Shown one piece after another: positions 1,741 through 14,524 of a DNA stretch of 22,266 nt (its first letter is position 1; the number at the start of each line of letters is the position of its first letter). The position numbers and the translations under genes are program-made. The stretch is from a virus, in IMG/VR virus record IMGVR_UViG_3300035196_000224, positions 1-22,266 of that record, one strand, 5' to 3'. The notes beneath the pieces are model-generated. The model was given only the letters and a program-made list of their open reading frames with translations. It was not told the DNA's origin and did not search any database.

Positions 1741-1770
1741 TTGACCTAATTATCAATTTTCGGCTATAAA
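1741..1770 (+). promoter_or_regulatory. Sigma70-type promoter of the pentapeptide-repeat operon
   Basis: TTGACC (1741-1746), an 18-bp spacer and TATAAA (1765-1770) form a strong sigma70-like promoter. Transcription would start near 1777, leaving a 5' leader of about 45 nt in which the 9-bp repeats (1787-1813) and the ribosome-binding site AAAGGA (1813-1818) lie. Confidence 0.75.
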
Positions 1771-1786
1771 GAGACTGAATTTAACG

Positions 1787-1813
1787 AATAAATTAAATAA
1801 ATTAAATAAATTA
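1787..1813 (+). repeat. Three perfect 9-bp repeats in the 5' leader
   Basis: AATAAATTA occurs three times head to tail between the promoter and the ribosome-binding site of the first pentapeptide gene. The otherwise similar leader of the second pentapeptide gene (around 2489-2505) has no such expansion, so the copy number has changed since the duplication, most simply by replication slippage. Confidence 0.85.
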
Positions 1814-1822
1814 AAGGACTAA

Positions 1823-2449
1823 ATGAGTATGATCAAATTTTCAGTTAACAATCGTTTTTCCGGTGTTGAAATGTTTACAGCATCAATCGATTGTGAAGAA
1901 TCCGAGAATGAGGGGACTAAAGCGGGTCTATCTATAAAGTGGGCTATTGAAAATGAGGTCGACCTTTATGGTGCCGATCTTCGTGGTGCCGATCTTTACG
2001 GTGCTAATTTTCGCGGTGCTAATCTTCGCGGTGCTGAGATCCAAGGTGCTAACCTTTATGGTGCCGATCTTTCCAATGCTGACCTTTCCGGTGCTAATCT
2101 TCGCGGTGCCGATCTTCGCAGTTCCAACCTTTATAGTGCCGACCTTCGCGATGTCGACCTTTACGGCGCTGATCTTTACAGTGCTAATTTTCGCGGTGCT
2201 TTAATCAAAAACAACATTAAGTTAACCGGCAAAGATCCGATATTTACAATGACGCCTGTAGGATCGGAAAGTAGAACACTATCTGCTTTTAACACAGATA
2301 AGGGCGTTTTTATCAAGCGTGGTTGTTTCTTCGATACGTTTGATTTTTTTAAAACCACTGTCGAAGAAACACAGTTATCAAATGAATATAGTGCGACCTA
2401 TCTTGTTGTGATCGCATTGATTGAAACTCTCTGGAATGACACCCTATAA
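1823..2449 (+). CDS. Pentapeptide-repeat protein, short paralogue
   Basis: A 208-aa protein with three parts: a conserved N-terminal cap (1-45), about 16 tandem pentapeptides of the A(D/N)LxG type (about 46-128), which fold as a right-handed quadrilateral beta-helix, and a C-terminal domain (130-208) with the motif IKRGCFFDTFD and a final helix rich in Leu/Ile. This kind of C-terminal domain follows pentapeptide repeats in other phage proteins; its function is not known to me. Pentapeptide proteins such as Qnr and MfpA mimic DNA and bind gyrase, so a DNA-mimic or gyrase/defence-related role is possible but unproven. The start is set by AAAGGA five bases before ATG. First gene of a plus-strand operon; paralogue of 2506-3492. 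Confidence 0.88.
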   Translation: MSMIKFSVNNRFSGVEMFTASIDCEESENEGTKAGLSIKWAIENEVDLYGADLRGADLYGANFRGANLRGAEIQGANLYGADLSNADLSGANLRGADLRSSNLYSADLRDVDLYGADLYSANFRGALIKNNIKLTGKDPIFTMTPVGSESRTLSAFNTDKGVFIKRGCFFDTFDFFKTTVEETQLSNEYSATYLVVIALIETLWNDTL

Positions 2450-2452
2450 GCC

Positions 2453-2477
2453 GGTATGGATATACCGACGAACTAAA
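2453..2477 (+). pseudogene. Relic of the zinc-ribbon gene start
   Basis: These 25 bases match 3520-3544, inside the zinc-ribbon gene (codons for WYGYSDELK), at 23 of 25 positions. Immediately before them, the ends of both pentapeptide genes also align, except that about 25 bases present at 3495-3519 are missing here. The stretch is therefore a decayed remnant left when a block containing a pentapeptide gene plus the start of its downstream neighbour was duplicated in tandem. Confidence 0.8.
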
Positions 2478-2505
2478 TTTCCAGTTTAACGAATTAAAGG
2501 ACTAA

Positions 2506-3492
2506 ATGAGTATGATTAAATTTCCAGTTAATAATCGCTATTCCCGTTCCGTAATGTTTACGGCTTCAATTGATTGTGGAGAATTCGAGAATGAGGGGAC
2601 TAAAGTAGGCCTAGCTGTAAGATGGGCTATTGAAAATGAGGTTGAGCTTTACTGTGCTGACCTTCATTGTTCTGACCTCCACGGTGTCGACCTTCGTGGT
2701 GCTAACCTTCGTGGTACCGACCTTCAAGGTGCTAACCTTAGAGATGCTAACCTTAAAGGTGCTAACCTTCGCGGTGTCGACCTTCAAACTACTGACCTCC
2801 ACAGCGCCAACCTTAAAGGTGTTAACTTCCACCGTGCCGATCTTCACGGTGCCGAGCTTTACGGTGCCAACCTTCAAGGTGCTAACCTTTACGGTGCTAA
2901 CCTTAACGGTGCCGATCTTAAAGGTGCTAACCTTTACAATGCTAACCTTAACGGTGCTAACCTTCGCCGTGCCGACCTTCGCTGTGTAGACCTTCACGAT
3001 GCCGACCTTCGTGGTGCTACCCTTGAAGGTGCCGATCTTCAAGGCGCTAACCTTTCTGGTGCCGACCTTCGTGATGCCGATATTCGCGGTGTTGACCTTC
3101 GTGGTACCGACCTTAACGGTGCACGGCTTAACGATGCCAACCTCAAGGATGCCGACTTTCAAGGTGCCGACCTTTACGGTGCTAACCTTAACGGTGTCGT
3201 AATCAAAAAACACACTAAGTTAATCGGTAAAGACCCGATATTCACAGTGACACCAATGGGTTTGGAAAGTGGGCCATTGTTCGCTTTTAACACAGACGCG
3301 GGTATTCTTATCAAGTGCGGTTCTTTCTTCAACACGTTTGATCATGGTGTTTCAGTTAGGGGCGCTTGTTTCTTCGACACGATTGATGTTTTTAAAACCA
3401 CTCTCGAAGCAGCAGATGCACCAAATAAATATAGTGCGAGCTATCTTGCTGTGATTGCACTGATCGAAACTCTCTGGACTGAAATCTCATGA
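2506..3492 (+). CDS. Pentapeptide-repeat protein, long paralogue
   Basis: A 328-aa protein with the same architecture as the short paralogue: cap 1-45, about 37 pentapeptides (about 46-233, roughly 185 residues), then the C-terminal domain. The cap, ribosome-binding site and leader (AAAGGACTAA before ATG) are nearly identical to those of 1823-2449, showing recent tandem duplication. The beta-helix would be more than twice as long as in the partner. The C-terminal domain carries a 15-residue insertion that duplicates the FFxTxD motif (about 274-279 and 289-294). The TGA stop overlaps the ATG of the zinc-ribbon gene (ATGA). Cell role unknown; a DNA-mimic function is an inference from the fold only. 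Confidence 0.9.
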   Translation: MSMIKFPVNNRYSRSVMFTASIDCGEFENEGTKVGLAVRWAIENEVELYCADLHCSDLHGVDLRGANLRGTDLQGANLRDANLKGANLRGVDLQTTDLHSANLKGVNFHRADLHGAELYGANLQGANLYGANLNGADLKGANLYNANLNGANLRRADLRCVDLHDADLRGATLEGADLQGANLSGADLRDADIRGVDLRGTDLNGARLNDANLKDADFQGADLYGANLNGVVIKKHTKLIGKDPIFTVTPMGLESGPLFAFNTDAGILIKCGSFFNTFDHGVSVRGACFFDTIDVFKTTLEAADAPNKYSASYLAVIALIETLWTEIS

Positions 3493-3866
3493 GCCGGGTA
3501 CTGTGTCAAGGGTGCAGCTGGTATGGATACAGCGACGAACTAAAGTCGCTTCAATCTGTGGCTGGTCCTAGTCTTATTAATACTTCAGTCGATACTAGTC
3601 ATTGCCTGTGTCCACTGTGTGGCGATTATCATATCCGTCACAGCCCCGCTGGTGAGAATAAGGGTTGCGCCATCATACAACAGCAGGACGAGTACTCATG
3701 CTCCACGTGTGCTATGCGGTGGGGGGTCGGCGAGAAGGCCCCCCAGTGCGAACGCGGTGTTCTAAAAAAACGCATTATGGAGATTGAAATGACGGGAAGT
3801 ATCATAGGTCGCGAAAAAGCTGAATACCGTCGACTGAAAGATAAATTAAGGGAACTAGTAAAATGA
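3489..3866 (+). CDS. Zinc-ribbon protein with charged C-terminal helix
   Basis: A 125-aa protein of unknown function. Cysteine pairs occur at C6/C9, C41/C44 (with C39) and C71/C74 (with C87), enough for one or two zinc ribbons; the last ~35 residues (from about 91) are highly charged and predicted helical or coiled coil. It begins inside the stop codon of the long pentapeptide gene and its TGA overlaps the ATG of the next gene, so all three are translationally coupled and probably act together. A relic of its start follows the first pentapeptide gene. I do not recognise the family. Confidence 0.75.
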   Translation: MSRVLCQGCSWYGYSDELKSLQSVAGPSLINTSVDTSHCLCPLCGDYHIRHSPAGENKGCAIIQQQDEYSCSTCAMRWGVGEKAPQCERGVLKKRIMEIEMTGSIIGREKAEYRRLKDKLRELVK

Positions 3867-4321
3867 CTGGACCAGCTACCAGACCCCCTACCGCCGGTGC
3901 TCGGGTGCTAGGGGTTATGTCAGACGGTAATCCCATAAACACAGCGGGGATTTTATCAGCGCATGGAACTATGTACGGTGCTGGTAAAATTTCATTAGGT
4001 TATTTGAAGCTGGTTATTCGAAAACTCTGGGATGATGGAGAAATCATAAAAGTATCACCCGGTATTTACGAGATCGCCACCGGATCCTATCGTGGTATCA
4101 GGAGGGCGGTTAAATCGACTACCAAACCCGATACCGTTGGCGATCGGGTGCTAAGGCTCATGGCAGATGGAAAACCCACAAAACCCGGGTTCATTTTATA
4201 TTACTATAAAATTGTATACGGTGAAACTTCAATAGGTTATTTGAGGTGGGTCATTAAAGAGCTCGTGATCGCTGGTAAAGTCCGAAAAGTAGCACGTGGT
4301 GTTTTCGCGAGGATAGTTTAA
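3863..4321 (+). CDS. Protein of two winged-helix-like repeats
   Basis: A 152-aa protein with an internal duplication: residues about 12-72 and 92-151 share the pattern G.RVL..M.DG.P......I......YG...I.YL..VI..L...G.(I/V).KV..G(I/V)(Y/F). Helix-helix-strand content and the closing G(I/V)(Y/F) beta hairpin resemble a winged-helix DNA-binding domain, so a single chain may bind DNA as a pseudo-dimer (inference). A basic linker (about 77-88) joins the repeats. Last gene of the pentapeptide operon; a possible regulator of that operon or of the palindromes at 1270-1357, though nothing in the sequence proves this. Confidence 0.7.
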   Translation: MTGPATRPPTAGARVLGVMSDGNPINTAGILSAHGTMYGAGKISLGYLKLVIRKLWDDGEIIKVSPGIYEIATGSYRGIRRAVKSTTKPDTVGDRVLRLMADGKPTKPGFILYYYKIVYGETSIGYLRWVIKELVIAGKVRKVARGVFARIV

Positions 4322-4400
4322 AGATTAACCTTGATATCATCTGAAGAATAGAGTTATACTGAGTTCGAACACCCTCCCTTGTTCACACTCATAACCTTGA

Positions 4401-4435
4401 CCCGACATCATTTATTTGGTGTCGGGTTTCTTTTT
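4401..4435 (+). terminator. Intrinsic terminator of the pentapeptide operon
   Basis: CCCGACATCA (4401-4410) pairs with TGGTGTCGGG (4417-4426) with one G-U pair, followed by TTTCTTTTT. It lies 80 bp after the last plus-strand gene of the operon. Confidence 0.9.
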
Positions 4436-4458: not shown

Positions 4459-4500
4459 TAAAAAACCCGACGCCAAATAAATAGCGTCGGGTTTAGTTTT
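4459..4500. terminator. Bidirectional intrinsic terminator
   Basis: CCCGACGC (4466-4473) pairs perfectly with GCGTCGGG (4484-4491). It is flanked by an A tract on the left and TTTAGTTTT on the right, so it can stop transcription from both sides: readthrough from the plus-strand operon and, mainly, the leftward replication operon ending at 4520. Confidence 0.88.
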
Positions 4501-4519: not shown

Positions 4520-6964
4520 TTACATCTTGTAACCTTGATCTTTGATATAATCCCCCATTAAATCATTGATCGTCTCGACGCCAGGGTTCTGAGAGTAGAT
4601 CACAGGTCGACCGCGTTCATTGACTAAGTCTTTGGTGAATCGACCGACTGTTCTATACCCGAGAGTTTCAAGCATTGCCTGACGTTTGTTACGGTTAACA
4701 TAATTAGCCTTACCGCTTCGTTTTAATAGTTCGTCGAGGGCAATAGATGAAATCCAGCCTCCTCGGAACCCTTGTATATTTTCATCAATAGCATTCAAGA
4801 TCTCTTGTTCGACAGCGCCAACCGATGCCTTAATAACTTCAGCTGTTGTCGACGTGGTTGGTGCGCGGTGTAGCTCTGTAGCCGGGTTTAGGTGATCTGG
4901 TATGTCATAGGTCTCCAGGTAGTTCGTCACCATTGCGTAACCGTCGGCGTTTAACCATCTATATAAATCAGGGAAGTAATCACCACCCATACCAGATGAT
5001 AATAGATCACTGTAACTCTGTTGTGCTGTGTAGAACACGGCATAGCGTCGGTCGTTCTCTGTTTTATGTACGGCGTCGCGGTGGTTACTGCACATAATGA
5101 AATTCGCGCGATTGTCGCCGCTGTACTGGTTACCGCCTTTAGCCTGTACCTCAATTCGGTCATTTGTAATCAGGATCTTTAAGGCGTCGATAGCGTCGCG
5201 GCGATCAGATATTTTGATTTCTTCAATACCGATAAACGCTTTTTGCTCTATCCAGGCATTAAATTTATTCGAAATATCGTTAGGGTTTGGAAAATGAGAC
5301 ATCCTGTTACCGACAGCATGTGCCACCACGCGCATTATCATGGATTTGCCATTACCCTCGGCACCCTGTAAGAGCGGGCACCATTGAAATTTAGTACCGA
5401 TATATTGCTTACATGCCGCCATATAAGCGAGCATGATAGCGCGGTCCTTATCGTCGGGTAGTAACTTCGCCAGAAAGTCGAGGAACGGTGTCACGTCGCC
5501 AGGAATCGAGCGTACGGATACAGGATAGAATGTATTTACTAACTCTCTCCCTTCTAGTGTGATGATCGTACCTGGCCTTAATTCAGGTCGAAACGCAGTA
5601 CCGTGGACCTTCGGAAATGATATTGCGTGAGATTTTAAAAACGTTTCCCAAGCGCATTTACTGGTCTGTTCATTCGAATTATCGAAAGCAAATACATAAA
5701 TCGAATAGCGCGCTTTAAACTGTTCTGGTGTAACGACTGAGCCGTCAGCTATTAAAATACTGTGACTGTCTTGAATGTATACGCAACCTTTGAAAAATTC
5801 TAATTGCTGATCAGGGTCAAGATACTGATAACTACCCATCCGTAACGCACCGTGATTAAACAAGGTGGGTGTTTCGGGTGTCTCGTCAGTCGAGACGCCG
5901 ACCGGCGAGTCGAATGAACCAGCGCCGTCAGTCGAGATATCCACATCAGGGGCACAAGGTGCTTTGTTAGTCGAGATAGCGCAAGGTGCTTCGATTACTG
6001 TAGAGCGTGGGTCTTTATAAACGTTCTGACAAAACCCGACCGCTTTCGGTATCGTGAATTCTTTTAAATATGACTGGTGCGTATCCCATTTGGCTCGATA
6101 GAGCCCTGACCTGCGTGCGATACGTTCCATACGTTCACAATTACAGCCACACCAGAACGCTAGGTGAGAGAAAAACGCTGCGTCTACGCTCGATGCGTCG
6201 AATGAACCATCGCCGTCAGGGTAGGTATTGGCGAACGACGCTGTGTCGTTGTTCCATAGGCTGACCAAGGACGTTTTACCAGAAAACAACGTGTCCGCTG
6301 AAGGTCGCGCGGAGAGCATACGTCGAATGAGTTCATCGTCGTCGTCTGGACCTTGCCAGTCATCGCGCTCTGTTGTCGACCATTCCGCCGATTGACTACC
6401 CGACGTCGTCTCCATATATGACGATAGGAAAATATTTAAAGCCGCCTGGTGATTTATTTCAGTTGTGCCTCGTTCGCCGTTTCGAGTGATAGCTATATAG
6501 CGACCATGGTCATAGACCTCTAACCCGAGAGCCTGGTTTTTGTTTTTGAAACCTTCAGGTATTTTACCTTGTGCAATAATATGGAGCCCGTTGCCGGTAT
6601 GTGATACCTCAACATAAGCGCCGGGGAATTGCTCACAGATCGACACGGATAGAGCTGACCATGTGTTGTCGGCTTCTAACGCGTAATCAATGTCAACTAC
6701 GAAATAATCATCGTCAGCACCGAATACAAAACCTGTGTATTTGGAGCGCTCAGCGACGGTCTCATAGTCAGACCAGTTAACCGGGTTTAGGTGATTTATA
6801 CCACCATGAACATGGATAACGTCTGGTTTGTCTGGTACCGGGTTTGGTGTCTCAGTAAATGTCACAGGCGTAAGGCCGTCGTACGGAACCTTACGCGGCT
6901 TCTTTTCGCCTGGAATCTGTAACGGTTGCCAGTTTACCCACTGGCTCGATGTAAATATACTCAT
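4520..6964 (-). CDS. Primase-helicase: prim-pol-like N-terminus plus D5/SF3 helicase
   Basis: An 814-aa two-part replication enzyme. N-terminal half: an archaeo-eukaryotic-type primase/prim-pol fold with the catalytic acids DID (91-93), SHTGNGLH (121-128, catalytic His) and the family hallmark GLEVYDHGRYIAIT (147-160); then a helical segment GHLAFW-like (about 260-294) typical of such phage primases. C-terminal half: SF3/D5-type ATPase with Walker A GAEGNGKS (534-541), Walker B FIGIEE (577-582), sensor NFIMCSN (621-627) and arginine finger ENDRR (636-640). The linker (about 325-365) contains a thrice-repeated STD/STN motif. It would unwind the origin and lay primers for the family B polymerase. 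Last gene of the leftward operon; its ATG overlaps the stop of the TetR-like gene. Confidence 0.9.
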   Translation of the reverse strand: MSIFTSSQWVNWQPLQIPGEKKPRKVPYDGLTPVTFTETPNPVPDKPDVIHVHGGINHLNPVNWSDYETVAERSKYTGFVFGADDDYFVVDIDYALEADNTWSALSVSICEQFPGAYVEVSHTGNGLHIIAQGKIPEGFKNKNQALGLEVYDHGRYIAITRNGERGTTEINHQAALNIFLSSYMETTSGSQSAEWSTTERDDWQGPDDDDELIRRMLSARPSADTLFSGKTSLVSLWNNDTASFANTYPDGDGSFDASSVDAAFFSHLAFWCGCNCERMERIARRSGLYRAKWDTHQSYLKEFTIPKAVGFCQNVYKDPRSTVIEAPCAISTNKAPCAPDVDISTDGAGSFDSPVGVSTDETPETPTLFNHGALRMGSYQYLDPDQQLEFFKGCVYIQDSHSILIADGSVVTPEQFKARYSIYVFAFDNSNEQTSKCAWETFLKSHAISFPKVHGTAFRPELRPGTIITLEGRELVNTFYPVSVRSIPGDVTPFLDFLAKLLPDDKDRAIMLAYMAACKQYIGTKFQWCPLLQGAEGNGKSMIMRVVAHAVGNRMSHFPNPNDISNKFNAWIEQKAFIGIEEIKISDRRDAIDALKILITNDRIEVQAKGGNQYSGDNRANFIMCSNHRDAVHKTENDRRYAVFYTAQQSYSDLLSSGMGGDYFPDLYRWLNADGYAMVTNYLETYDIPDHLNPATELHRAPTTSTTAEVIKASVGAVEQEILNAIDENIQGFRGGWISSIALDELLKRSGKANYVNRNKRQAMLETLGYRTVGRFTKDLVNERGRPVIYSQNPGVETINDLMGDYIKDQGYKM

Positions 6965-7302
6965 GTACTAGCCCCTGGAACGATTCTTACTAGGTCTTGT
7001 AAAAGCTGTTCTTTGATACTTTGCGGAATCGATTCGGTTCCGTGGTGTTTCATCGAAACGGCATGGGCTAAAATCGTATCGTAGTGGCTGCCATATTCCC
7101 GAGCGTAAGCGATAACAGCGGCGCGGAGTTCCGACTGTGTGAAATAACCTTTAACAGTCGATTTACTGCAATCGGGTAAGAGTTTAGAGACACTAGAGAG
7201 GCTGATGTTAAAGACGCCGTGGGTTAACGAGTCTTTGACAGCGGCGACAATAATCTGCCGTTTTCTTTGATCGGGGGTTAGTCGTGTGCGTGGGCGATGC
7301 AT
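6961..7302 (-). CDS. Short TetR-type helix-turn-helix protein
   Basis: A 113-aa protein whose N-terminal ~50 residues have the TetR DNA-binding pattern: a basic helix RKRQIIVAAVKDS, then G-FN-SL-SVSKLLP (helix 2), then STVKGYF (recognition helix with the usual Y-F) and a further helix. TetR proteins are normally about 200 aa; the ligand-binding domain is absent or reduced to ~50 residues. It may be a phage regulator acting on its own replication operon, or a replication accessory protein. An AGGAG ribosome-binding site lies 8 bases before ATG, inside the end of the VRR-NUC gene (25-bp overlap). Confidence 0.7.
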   Translation of the reverse strand: MHRPRTRLTPDQRKRQIIVAAVKDSLTHGVFNISLSSVSKLLPDCSKSTVKGYFTQSELRAAVIAYAREYGSHYDTILAHAVSMKHHGTESIPQSIKEQLLQDLVRIVPGAST

Positions 7303-12220: not shown

Positions 12221-13140
12221 TGGGTGAAATCCAAGAAGTCCAAATCCCTCGTGCTCGTCTCATTTACGGGCATCCTATGAAGCTAACCGGTAAAGTTAAC
12301 TACAACACCGGTCAACCCGATATCGACGACGCAACAGGTCTGCAGAAGCAAATCTGTATCTTCCATCTGGCAATTCCAAAGACAGATCCTGCGCTAACCG
12401 ATGTGTTTACAAAGTTCGCAGCCGCAGCCGGCCGTGAGTGGGTTGCAGATCCCGACAATGATCCGTCGCGCTTTAAGTGGAAAGTCTCAGACGGTGACGG
12501 TCAGCGTCTTGACAAAAAGAAAAATGGAATGGTCGACTACCCTGAGTATTGCAAGGGTCACTATATTATCAAGGTGACGTCTCACGGGTTTATTGCAAAC
12601 TGTGTCTATCAGCCCGGACCGGGTCAGCCACACCGCGATATTATCGAACCGTCAGCAATCAAATGTGGTGACTATGTCGACGGCTTTCTAAAAGTTGAAA
12701 GCAACAATGCCTCCGGTGAGCAGGCCGGTATCTACGTTAACCCCGGTTTTATTCGTTTTCTTGAGGCCGGCGGTGCAATTGCTACAGGTGGTGGTATGGG
12801 TGCAAGTGACGCCGACACTCTGTTAGCTGATAACCCGACACCGGGCGCGATTGCGACACCCGCAGCTGTACCTACACCACCAGCAGCACCTGCAGCTGGA
12901 CCTACACCAGTAGCACCACCGGCACCACCAGCAGCACCTGCAGCTGGACCTACGCCACCGGCACCACCGGCACCACCGGCACCACCGGCACCACCAGCCA
13001 CACCGGCGAAACAAATGTTACCAGCCGCAGCCGGTATGACTTACGAGCAATACATCGCGGCTGGATGGAATGATCAGCAAATGATCGACGGGGGTCTACT
13101 AATGCCGCCGGCAAATTTCGCGGCTGGGCCAGGTGCTTAA
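12220..13140 (+). CDS. DUF2815-type ssDNA-binding protein with Pro/Ala linker
   Basis: A 306-aa protein. Residues 1-185 fit the DUF2815/T7 gp2.5-like OB-fold ssDNA-binding family: IPRARLIYG near the start, FHLAIPKTDPA (48-58), the GHYIIKVTS strand (113-121), and the closing DYVDGFLKV...GIYVNPGFIRFLEAGG (151-185). Residues about 205-264 are a Pro/Ala linker from 9- and 30-bp repeats, and the C-terminus carries the motif YEQYIAAGWNDQQMIDGG (275-292), shared with the 10290-11108 protein. Phage SSBs often end in an acidic tail that recruits partners; here that place is taken by this motif. It protects single-stranded DNA at the fork. Confidence 0.88.
   Translation: MGEIQEVQIPRARLIYGHPMKLTGKVNYNTGQPDIDDATGLQKQICIFHLAIPKTDPALTDVFTKFAAAAGREWVADPDNDPSRFKWKVSDGDGQRLDKKKNGMVDYPEYCKGHYIIKVTSHGFIANCVYQPGPGQPHRDIIEPSAIKCGDYVDGFLKVESNNASGEQAGIYVNPGFIRFLEAGGAIATGGGMGASDADTLLADNPTPGAIATPAAVPTPPAAPAAGPTPVAPPAPPAAPAAGPTPPAPPAPPAPPAPPATPAKQMLPAAAGMTYEQYIAAGWNDQQMIDGGLLMPPANFAAGPGA
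12892..12918 (+). repeat. Linker repeat shared with the 10290-11108 gene
   Basis: Second copy of the 27-bp linker repeat (26 of 27 identical to 10401-10427); a third, more diverged copy begins at 12940. Confidence 0.85.
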
Positions 13141-13159
13141 CTTGTCGCGTGGCCTGTAA

Positions 13160-13185
13160 CTACAATCCCATTGTAGGGGATTGTA
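13160..13185 (+). promoter_or_regulatory. Two mutually exclusive hairpins
   Basis: CTACAAT (13160-13166) pairs perfectly with ATTGTAG (13170-13176), loop CCC. Alternatively TACAATCCC (13161-13169) pairs perfectly with GGGATTGTA (13177-13185), loop of 7. The left arm cannot be in both, so the RNA has two competing folds. It lies 20 bp after the SSB stop and before the thioredoxin gene. Confidence 0.6.
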
Positions 13186-13202
13186 TACCTTTCTAAAATA
13201 TT

Positions 13203-13228
13203 CCCGACGTCGAATAAACGGCGTCGGG
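13203..13228 (+). terminator. CCCGAC-type hairpin lacking a U tract
   Basis: CCCGACGTCG (13203-13212) pairs with CGGCGTCGGG (13219-13228) with one G-U pair and an AATAAA loop. The stem belongs to the same sequence family as the two terminators at 4401 and 4466, but ATAACCC follows instead of a U tract, so it may be a weak terminator, a processing site or an mRNA-end stabiliser. Confidence 0.5.
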
Positions 13229-13249
13229 ATAACCCATGGATTTAAAATA

Positions 13250-13576
13250 ATGAAAAAAGAAGTAACTGACGCCTCATTTGACACCGATGTACTTAATTCT
13301 TCGAAACCTGTGCTTGTGGACTTTTGGGCAGAATGGTGCGGTCCTTGCAAACAGATTGCACCAACGCTGGATGAAATGGCCAGTGAGATGGAAGACCGCC
13401 TGACAATCCTCAAGATGAACATCGACGAAAATCCCAGCATTCCATCCAAATACAACGTGCGTAGCATTCCCACACTGATGATTTTCAAGGACGGCCAGGT
13501 GGCCGCCATGAGGGTTGGTTCTGTGCCGAAAAGCGAGTTGGTGGAATGGGTGAAATTGGTGGAATCCGAGACTTGA
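13250..13576 (+). CDS. trxA: Thioredoxin
   Basis: A 108-aa classical thioredoxin, a full-length single domain. The active site WCGPC is at 29-33, preceded by PVLVDFWAE; the cis-proline motif is in RSIPTLMIF (about 75-83), and the C-terminal helix is present. It reduces protein disulphides in the cytoplasm; in T7 the host thioredoxin also serves as polymerase processivity factor, but that binding loop belongs to family A polymerases and the polymerase here is family B. Phage copies may support ribonucleotide reductase or redox balance. The ATG at 13250 is chosen by family length; the in-frame extension upstream is non-coding. Sequence composition looks more bacterial than its neighbours, suggesting acquisition from a host. 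Confidence 0.95.
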   Translation: MKKEVTDASFDTDVLNSSKPVLVDFWAEWCGPCKQIAPTLDEMASEMEDRLTILKMNIDENPSIPSKYNVRSIPTLMIFKDGQVAAMRVGSVPKSELVEWVKLVESET

Positions 13577-13915: not shown

Positions 13916-13919
13916 ATGA
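13830..13919 (+). CDS. Possible 29-aa leader peptide
   Basis: A short ORF, basic in its first half (LPRRLSRYY), starting 8 bases after GAGG (13818-13821) and ending in a TGA that overlaps the ATG of the outer-membrane protein gene (ATGA). The arrangement allows translational coupling: ribosomes finishing the leader can restart on the next gene. Not a recognised protein; short ORFs like this can arise by chance. Confidence 0.4.
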   Translation: MHRSNNLPRRLSRYYINKSPFTLTQELST

Positions 13920-14524
13920 ACAAACTATTACTTACGGCAACAACCAGTGCATTCATTGCGCTGTCATTCTCAACTGCGCACGCGGTTGATCTTACGCCAC
14001 TCGAAGGCTTTTATATTTCAGGCTTCGGCGGTGTGGTCATGGAAGGCCATACGAAATGGAAGCAGGGGGATGTCTCCTCGAACGAAGACTTCGATCACGA
14101 TCTATTGTCCTACGGCGGCGCAGTCGGTTATGACTTCGGCGACTATCGATTTGAAGGCGAATTATCGCACTTATCTGCGTATGGTGAAACCATGCAGAGC
14201 GAAACGCACAAGCTATCGAGCGAAATCTCAGCAACTGCACTCATGGTTAATGCTTGGTACGATGTCGACACAGGTACCGACTTCACACCTTACGTTGGTG
14301 GTGGCGTTGGTGCTGCAGAGATCGAGGTTGATTCCACTAAAACCTGGCCAGAAGGGTCTTTTTCTGGATCTGGGTACTCTAGCACAGAGTACGCGTACCA
14401 AGTTGGTACTGGCGTGGACTACTCAGTCACAGAAGGCGCGACTGTTGGCCTTGGATACAAGTATCTATCCGCAGGCGACCAGAGCTTTCACACTGTGAAT
14501 GCGGGAATGCGTTACACGTTCTAA
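13916..14524 (+). CDS. Outer-membrane beta-barrel protein (phage moron)
   Basis: A 202-aa secreted protein. Residues 1-23 are a signal peptide (basic MNK, hydrophobic core, cleavage after AHA). The mature part alternates aromatic and Gly residues in short beta strands (GFYISGFGGVV, YVGGGVGAAEIEV, GTGVDYSVTEGATVGLGYKYL) and ends in MRYTF, the terminal-Phe strand recognised by the BAM machinery. It fits the 8-stranded OmpA/Lom/Ail-like barrels. Phage morons such as lambda Lom sit in the host outer membrane and alter adhesion, serum resistance or superinfection. It has its own strong promoter and long leader, with AGGA 9 bases before ATG, and interrupts the replication operon, so it is probably expressed on its own schedule. 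Confidence 0.88.
   Translation: MNKLLLTATTSAFIALSFSTAHAVDLTPLEGFYISGFGGVVMEGHTKWKQGDVSSNEDFDHDLLSYGGAVGYDFGDYRFEGELSHLSAYGETMQSETHKLSSEISATALMVNAWYDVDTGTDFTPYVGGGVGAAEIEVDSTKTWPEGSFSGSGYSSTEYAYQVGTGVDYSVTEGATVGLGYKYLSAGDQSFHTVNAGMRYTF

Follow-up and report, generated by a model that had tools for sequence, protein, structure and literature searches.

A four-gene cassette between the terminase and primase operons

Four small genes lie between the terminase and primase operons of an uncultured phage, and their arrangement raises the question of whether they form one dedicated system or simply share a place in the genome. It also asks whether the two pentapeptide beta-helix proteins encoded there are directed at host gyrase or restriction enzymes. 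The window analysed here is the whole of a 22,266-base linear virus record from IMG/VR, and its DNA has no near match among phage records. The four open reading frames are all on the plus strand (cassette span, 1823–4321) and are flanked on the minus strand by the primase gene (4520–6964) and by the terminase genes (from about 1194 downwards). The features of the cassette are as follows:

1741–1770, plus strand: putative sigma70-type promoter, TTGACC-18-TATAAA (consensus match only)
1823–2449, plus strand: P1, pentapeptide-repeat protein of 208 amino acids (PF00805, 1e-27; AF2 model, pLDDT 85.6)
2506–3492, plus strand: P2, paralogue of P1, 328 amino acids with 37–38 pentapeptides (PF00805, 3e-83)
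3489–3866, plus strand: P3, zinc protein of 125 amino acids (phrog_35049, 2e-6)
3863–4321, plus strand: P4, basic protein (pI 10.2) of 152 amino acids with two 66-residue winged-helix-like repeats (AbiEi_4 match below cut-off)
4399–4428, plus strand: intrinsic terminator of the cassette, a hairpin (fold z = -6.0)
4463–4494, minus strand: mirror intrinsic terminator of the primase operon (z -6.1)

ATGA stop-start overlaps couple P2 to P3 and P3 to P4, and the leaders of P1 and P2 are almost the same (AATTAAAGGACTAAATG). The exact promoter pattern has a chance of 0.02, yet it was picked post hoc. An earlier note on this DNA described four genes with their own promoter and terminator, opposed to both flanking operons; the coordinates and the strong terminator bear this out, and the promoter is plausible. 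Its description of an independent accessory cassette, read against both neighbours, also agrees with the variability of the slot in relatives. An Rfam match of the terminator pair to MIR1319 (28 versus 116 bits) was taken as chance, and a T7-promoter-like string at 1601 (CACTATAGGG) was dropped because half of the shuffles match at one mismatch.

On balance, and with modest confidence, we read this stretch as a variable accessory slot between the primase and terminase operons whose parts are independent (a regulator, P4; host-interaction proteins, P1 and P2; and a separate P3) rather than as a dedicated four-part system. The candidate four-part system gives way to a proposed lineage-specific slot regulator and a widespread, uncharacterised family of phage proteins.

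The same slot in related phages

Relatives were drawn from a primase scan (L015) and a helicase scan (80 loci). The nearest are the phages of L015 (51% identity in the primase), L043 (63% in the helicase) and L044 (57% in the helicase). Each of these three closest relatives, the only close ones found, has a small-gene cassette convergent with the primase that includes a P4-type protein (E of 7e-7 in L043 and 9e-12 in L044), and PF00805 is absent from their entire records of 49 kb, 43 kb and 17 kb, the 17-kb one being a fragment. Other relatives carry pentapeptide genes near the primase, singly or in tandem and independently of zinc-knuckle genes. In L078 and L085, too, two pentapeptide genes stand in tandem and convergent with the primase, which suggests that the slot has acquired such pairs more than once.

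The earlier note had proposed a joint role for the four genes, a proposal that these relatives do not support. Concerted action of the pentapeptide, zinc-knuckle and winged-helix proteins in one module is consistent with the overlapping genes, the common terminator and a gene fusion in L015 that joins the tail of P3 to one P4-type domain; L015 has its zinc-knuckle gene separately. Furthermore, an unannotated pentapeptide ORF of 165 amino acids in Vibrio phage CP-T1 (L003 2646–3143, about 12900–13397) directly follows the zinc-knuckle gene gp15, and pentapeptide and zinc genes lie within 1.3 kb of each other in L060, a locus with less than 3.5 kb of room after the primase. Some functional link between pentapeptide and zinc proteins is therefore possible. 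However, some relatives have P4 and no pentapeptide genes, and others have pentapeptide genes and no P4. The 34 dereplicated loci that have 3.5 kb or more beyond the primase (L060 left out) include 7 with pentapeptide genes and 6 with zinc-knuckle genes, and the window is the only locus with both (Fisher p = 1). A joint four-gene module is thus very unlikely.

P4 as a candidate regulator of the slot

The independent-parts reading gives P4 a regulatory role. The two repeats of P4 are 77% identical in DNA over their best 64 bp, and its homologues have one or two such repeats. In the L044 phage, the cassette opens with a gene (L123 1342–1905) for a double winged-helix-like relative that has a Pro/Ala-rich tail and aligns to both repeats (5e-11). 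Whole-record searches of the relatives found P4 homologues only in the L015, L043 and L044 phages, and P4 had no match among phage records and no relative in a single-protein scan of viral contigs. Of the DNA-binding-like protein of two repeats described earlier, the repeats stand; the fold is better called winged-helix-like, as it is suggested by weak AbiEi_4 profile matches and by the homologues, and the structure model is poor (pLDDT 43).

P4 shares with the AbiEi_4 winged-helix regulators (PF13338) a short winged-helix-like motif ending in G-x-Y, which brings up the possibility of an AbiEi-type antitoxin in an abortive-infection pair. PF13338 matches P4 (E 8e-4) and, separately, its L044-phage relative, and the PADLOC AbiEi model also matches P4 (E 4e-4). 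Both Pfam matches nevertheless cover at most 20 residues and stay under the curated cut-off (20 versus 25 bits), and membership was rejected for P4 on its score of 19.8 bits. P4 also differs from these regulators in its two repeats and in having no recognised toxin partner, and P1–P3 have no match to the AbiEii model in PADLOC. We consider an abortive-infection pair extremely improbable. As a slot regulator, the P4 lineage would bind DNA and control the cassette or its divergent promoter region, and the pentapeptide pair may have been acquired into this P4-controlled slot.

P3, a small zinc protein

The CxxC pairs read off the sequence of P3 (C6-x2-C9...C41-x2-C44, with a second set C71-x2-C74...C87) agree with the zinc-ribbon protein described earlier. 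The protein has an N-terminal CxxC/CxxC ribbon, a phrog_35049-like CxxC-W-PxC knuckle and a C-terminal tail, IEMTGSIIGRE. It resembles the small zinc-knuckle phage proteins of phrog_35049 and phrog_8641, such as gp15 of Vibrio phage CP-T1, in the CxxC-x3-W-x(n)-PxC motif and differs from them in the extra N-terminal ribbon and the IEMTG tail, which is common to a protein of the L015 phage (50% identity over 34 amino acids). A single-protein scan of viral contigs returned no relative of P3. These features would fit a separate small zinc protein.

P1 and P2 are tandem paralogues

The two pentapeptide genes form a tandem duplication, and the family of proteins to which they belong is widespread in phages. 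P1 has an N-cap (1823–1957), 16–17 pentapeptides (about 1958–2212) and a C-terminal domain (about 2204–2446). P2 has the same N-cap and C-terminal domain, the latter with a 15-residue insertion, and the main difference between the two proteins is the length of the rod. In a 248-bp stretch of leader and N-cap their DNA is 81% identical, and in a 117-bp stretch of the C-terminal domain 85%. The N-caps are under purifying selection, and dN/dS values of 0.22 and 0.46 suggest that both copies are kept.

The profile scores of P1 and P2 and the confident model of P1 agree with the two pentapeptide beta-helix proteins described in the earlier note. The P1 model, a monomer built with eight relatives, starts with a beta hairpin and a helix, continues with about four beta-helix coils and ends in a mixed C-terminal domain that closes with two helices. 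Among solved structures its core resembles MfpA (Z about 14) and QnrB (Z up to 13.6), a likeness that any pentapeptide protein would give, and the Foldseek and VIA-align matches are likewise driven mostly by the pentapeptide core. Structural matches to SV2, which concern the pentapeptide folds of a receptor, gave no lead. No relative of P1 was returned by a single-protein scan of viral contigs.

Conserved ends and a rod of variable length

The family to which P1 and P2 belong is widespread in phages, and its end pieces are almost constant in length. The N-cap, a beta hairpin followed by a helix, is shared by the window proteins. The C-terminal domain of P1 matches phrog_20532 (1e-12) and gp3 of EBPR siphovirus 1 (3e-7). 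EBPR siphovirus 1 gp3 and MAJJADAN_00005 of Pseudomonas phage Amjad_SA (PHROG 20532 / 7964) likewise have an N-cap, a pentapeptide beta-helix and a C-terminal domain with the pattern GPIGS...GCF...F...Y. P1 and P2 differ from them in standing in tandem within a convergent cassette, in the 15-residue insertion of P2 and in the GPIGS motif, which has drifted to TPVGS / TPMGL.

The number of pentapeptides in the family ranges from 7 to 39. One pentapeptide makes a quarter turn of the beta-helix, and pentapeptide numbers with every residue modulo four were seen (2, 5, 4 and 8 for residues 0 to 3), with no clear bias. In two phages with 99.9% identity over 16.6 kb, the pentapeptide genes (L106 5357–6004 and L107 5372–6004) differ by 15 bp, or one pentapeptide; in another pair the difference is 25 residues, or five pentapeptides. 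The differences in repeat number come from metagenome contigs, where they could be assembly artefacts; the 15-bp difference may reflect repeat slippage or an assembly effect. Because a pentapeptide is a quarter turn and the number varies singly, the two ends of these proteins have no fixed mutual rotation.

The C-terminal domain is portable: in Paenibacillus phage Pd_22F it comes after a repeat of a non-pentapeptide kind, and in Bacillus phage phiAGATE it is attached to a protein of the hexapeptide type; other family members bear DUF5758 in its place. The domain is about 80 residues long; sequence searches gave neither a Pfam match nor a solved relative, and as a query on its own it found nothing in genome contigs. 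Profile comparison (hhalign probability 76%, E 2e-5) suggests that it is probably related to the AGCR-type C-terminal domain found in other pentapeptide proteins of phages. On a bolder reading, less likely than not, the domain would be a phage-wide interaction module on unrelated scaffolds (pentapeptide and hexapeptide), and the rod between it and the N-cap a spacer that slippage lengthens or shortens in single 15-bp units.

Charge and the candidate targets of P1 and P2

Phage pentapeptide proteins are readily presumed to be gyrase-directed, and our search of the open-access literature turned up no experimental work on one encoded by a phage. According to the earlier note, a joint role would be unlikely if the helices lacked an acidic face. 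Sequence charge revealed no clear acidic face on either core: P1 carries -4 in 80 residues and P2 -9 in 185, with more than half of the latter on one face. The weak acidity of the pair stands; it is not a family property, as the core charge of relatives, again from sequence, spans -9.5 to +3.1 per 100 residues.

These values bear on the possibility that P1 and P2 are DNA mimics: like Qnr and MfpA, they would bind the host's gyrase or topoisomerase IV, and they would adjust supercoiling to suit phage replication. Like Qnr, MfpA and AlbG, P1 and P2 have a right-handed quadrilateral beta-helix core, supported by profile and by the model with its MfpA and QnrB matches. Both whole proteins are acidic (pI 4.5 and 5.1), several relatives have a pentapeptide gene immediately after the primase, and HHpred led to the suggestion of a gyrase-type function for a gene of a Listeria phage (PMC12282133). 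However, P1 and P2 differ from Qnr, MfpA and AlbG in their end domains, including the additional C-terminal domain, and score far below the NCBIfam cut-offs for Qnr (36 and 74 versus 240 bits) and MfpA (37 and 70 versus 360 bits), although these models are narrow. Furthermore, the phage family conserves neither charge nor coil number: the core is near neutral or positive in several members, and single-pentapeptide steps rotate one end against the other. A fixed-shape DNA mimic is therefore disfavoured. Given the weak acidic face, the variable charge and the low Qnr and MfpA scores, gyrase or another DNA-binding target is possible but not indicated; restriction, too, is possible but not specifically indicated. 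We regard gyrase mimicry as rather unlikely.

A role for P1 and P2 as anti-restriction or other anti-defence proteins would fit their accessory position in a variable slot, and a fast change in repeat number would suit an arms race. However, the pentapeptide proteins McbG and QnrB failed to block BREX in published tests (PMC7261183). The absence of PADLOC matches to P1 and P2 says little, as PADLOC covers defence rather than counter-defence genes. We consider an anti-defence function unlikely.

The conserved part of the family is the end domains and not the often-cited DNA-like helix, and the variation in charge and length turns attention to these domains first. The conserved ends are better candidates for contacts than the rod. 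As host-interaction proteins in the variable slot, P1 and P2 would be made early and may bind a host (or phage) protein through the N-cap and C-terminal domain, for which the beta-helix would serve as a length-tolerant rod rather than a fixed DNA mimic.

Control region and neighbouring genes

We also identified repeats between the cassette and the terminase genes and a candidate regulator near the primase:

1270–1286, 1305–1321 and 1341–1357: three operator-like palindromes, TGTTCACGCC(A/T)TGAACA, with 35/36-bp spacing
1475–1511 and 1652–1688: arms of a long inverted repeat (0/40 shuffles reach it)
6961–7302, minus strand: small TetR-like protein (phrog_8723), encoded immediately upstream of the primase

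The palindromes lie upstream of the gene for the terminase small subunit, and their exact pattern is absent from the other loci examined. The TetR-like protein is conserved in L043 and L044 and is a candidate binder of the palindromes. Comparable inverted repeats, each again reached by 0/40 shuffles, occur in L015 (13374–13394/13617–13637), L043 (13396–13420/13632–13656) and L123 (1210–1229/1307–1326). In the window and these three relatives the repeats occupy the control region between the cassette and the divergent late genes, with arms of 20–37 nt that are 78–223 nt apart and differ in sequence in each phage. They could be paired operators or an origin.

Beside the replication genes, the window also encodes a phage-borne thioredoxin (13181–13576) and a beta-barrel protein of the outer membrane whose N-terminus is signal-like (13916–14524; PF13505). 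Superinfection exclusion is a possible function here.
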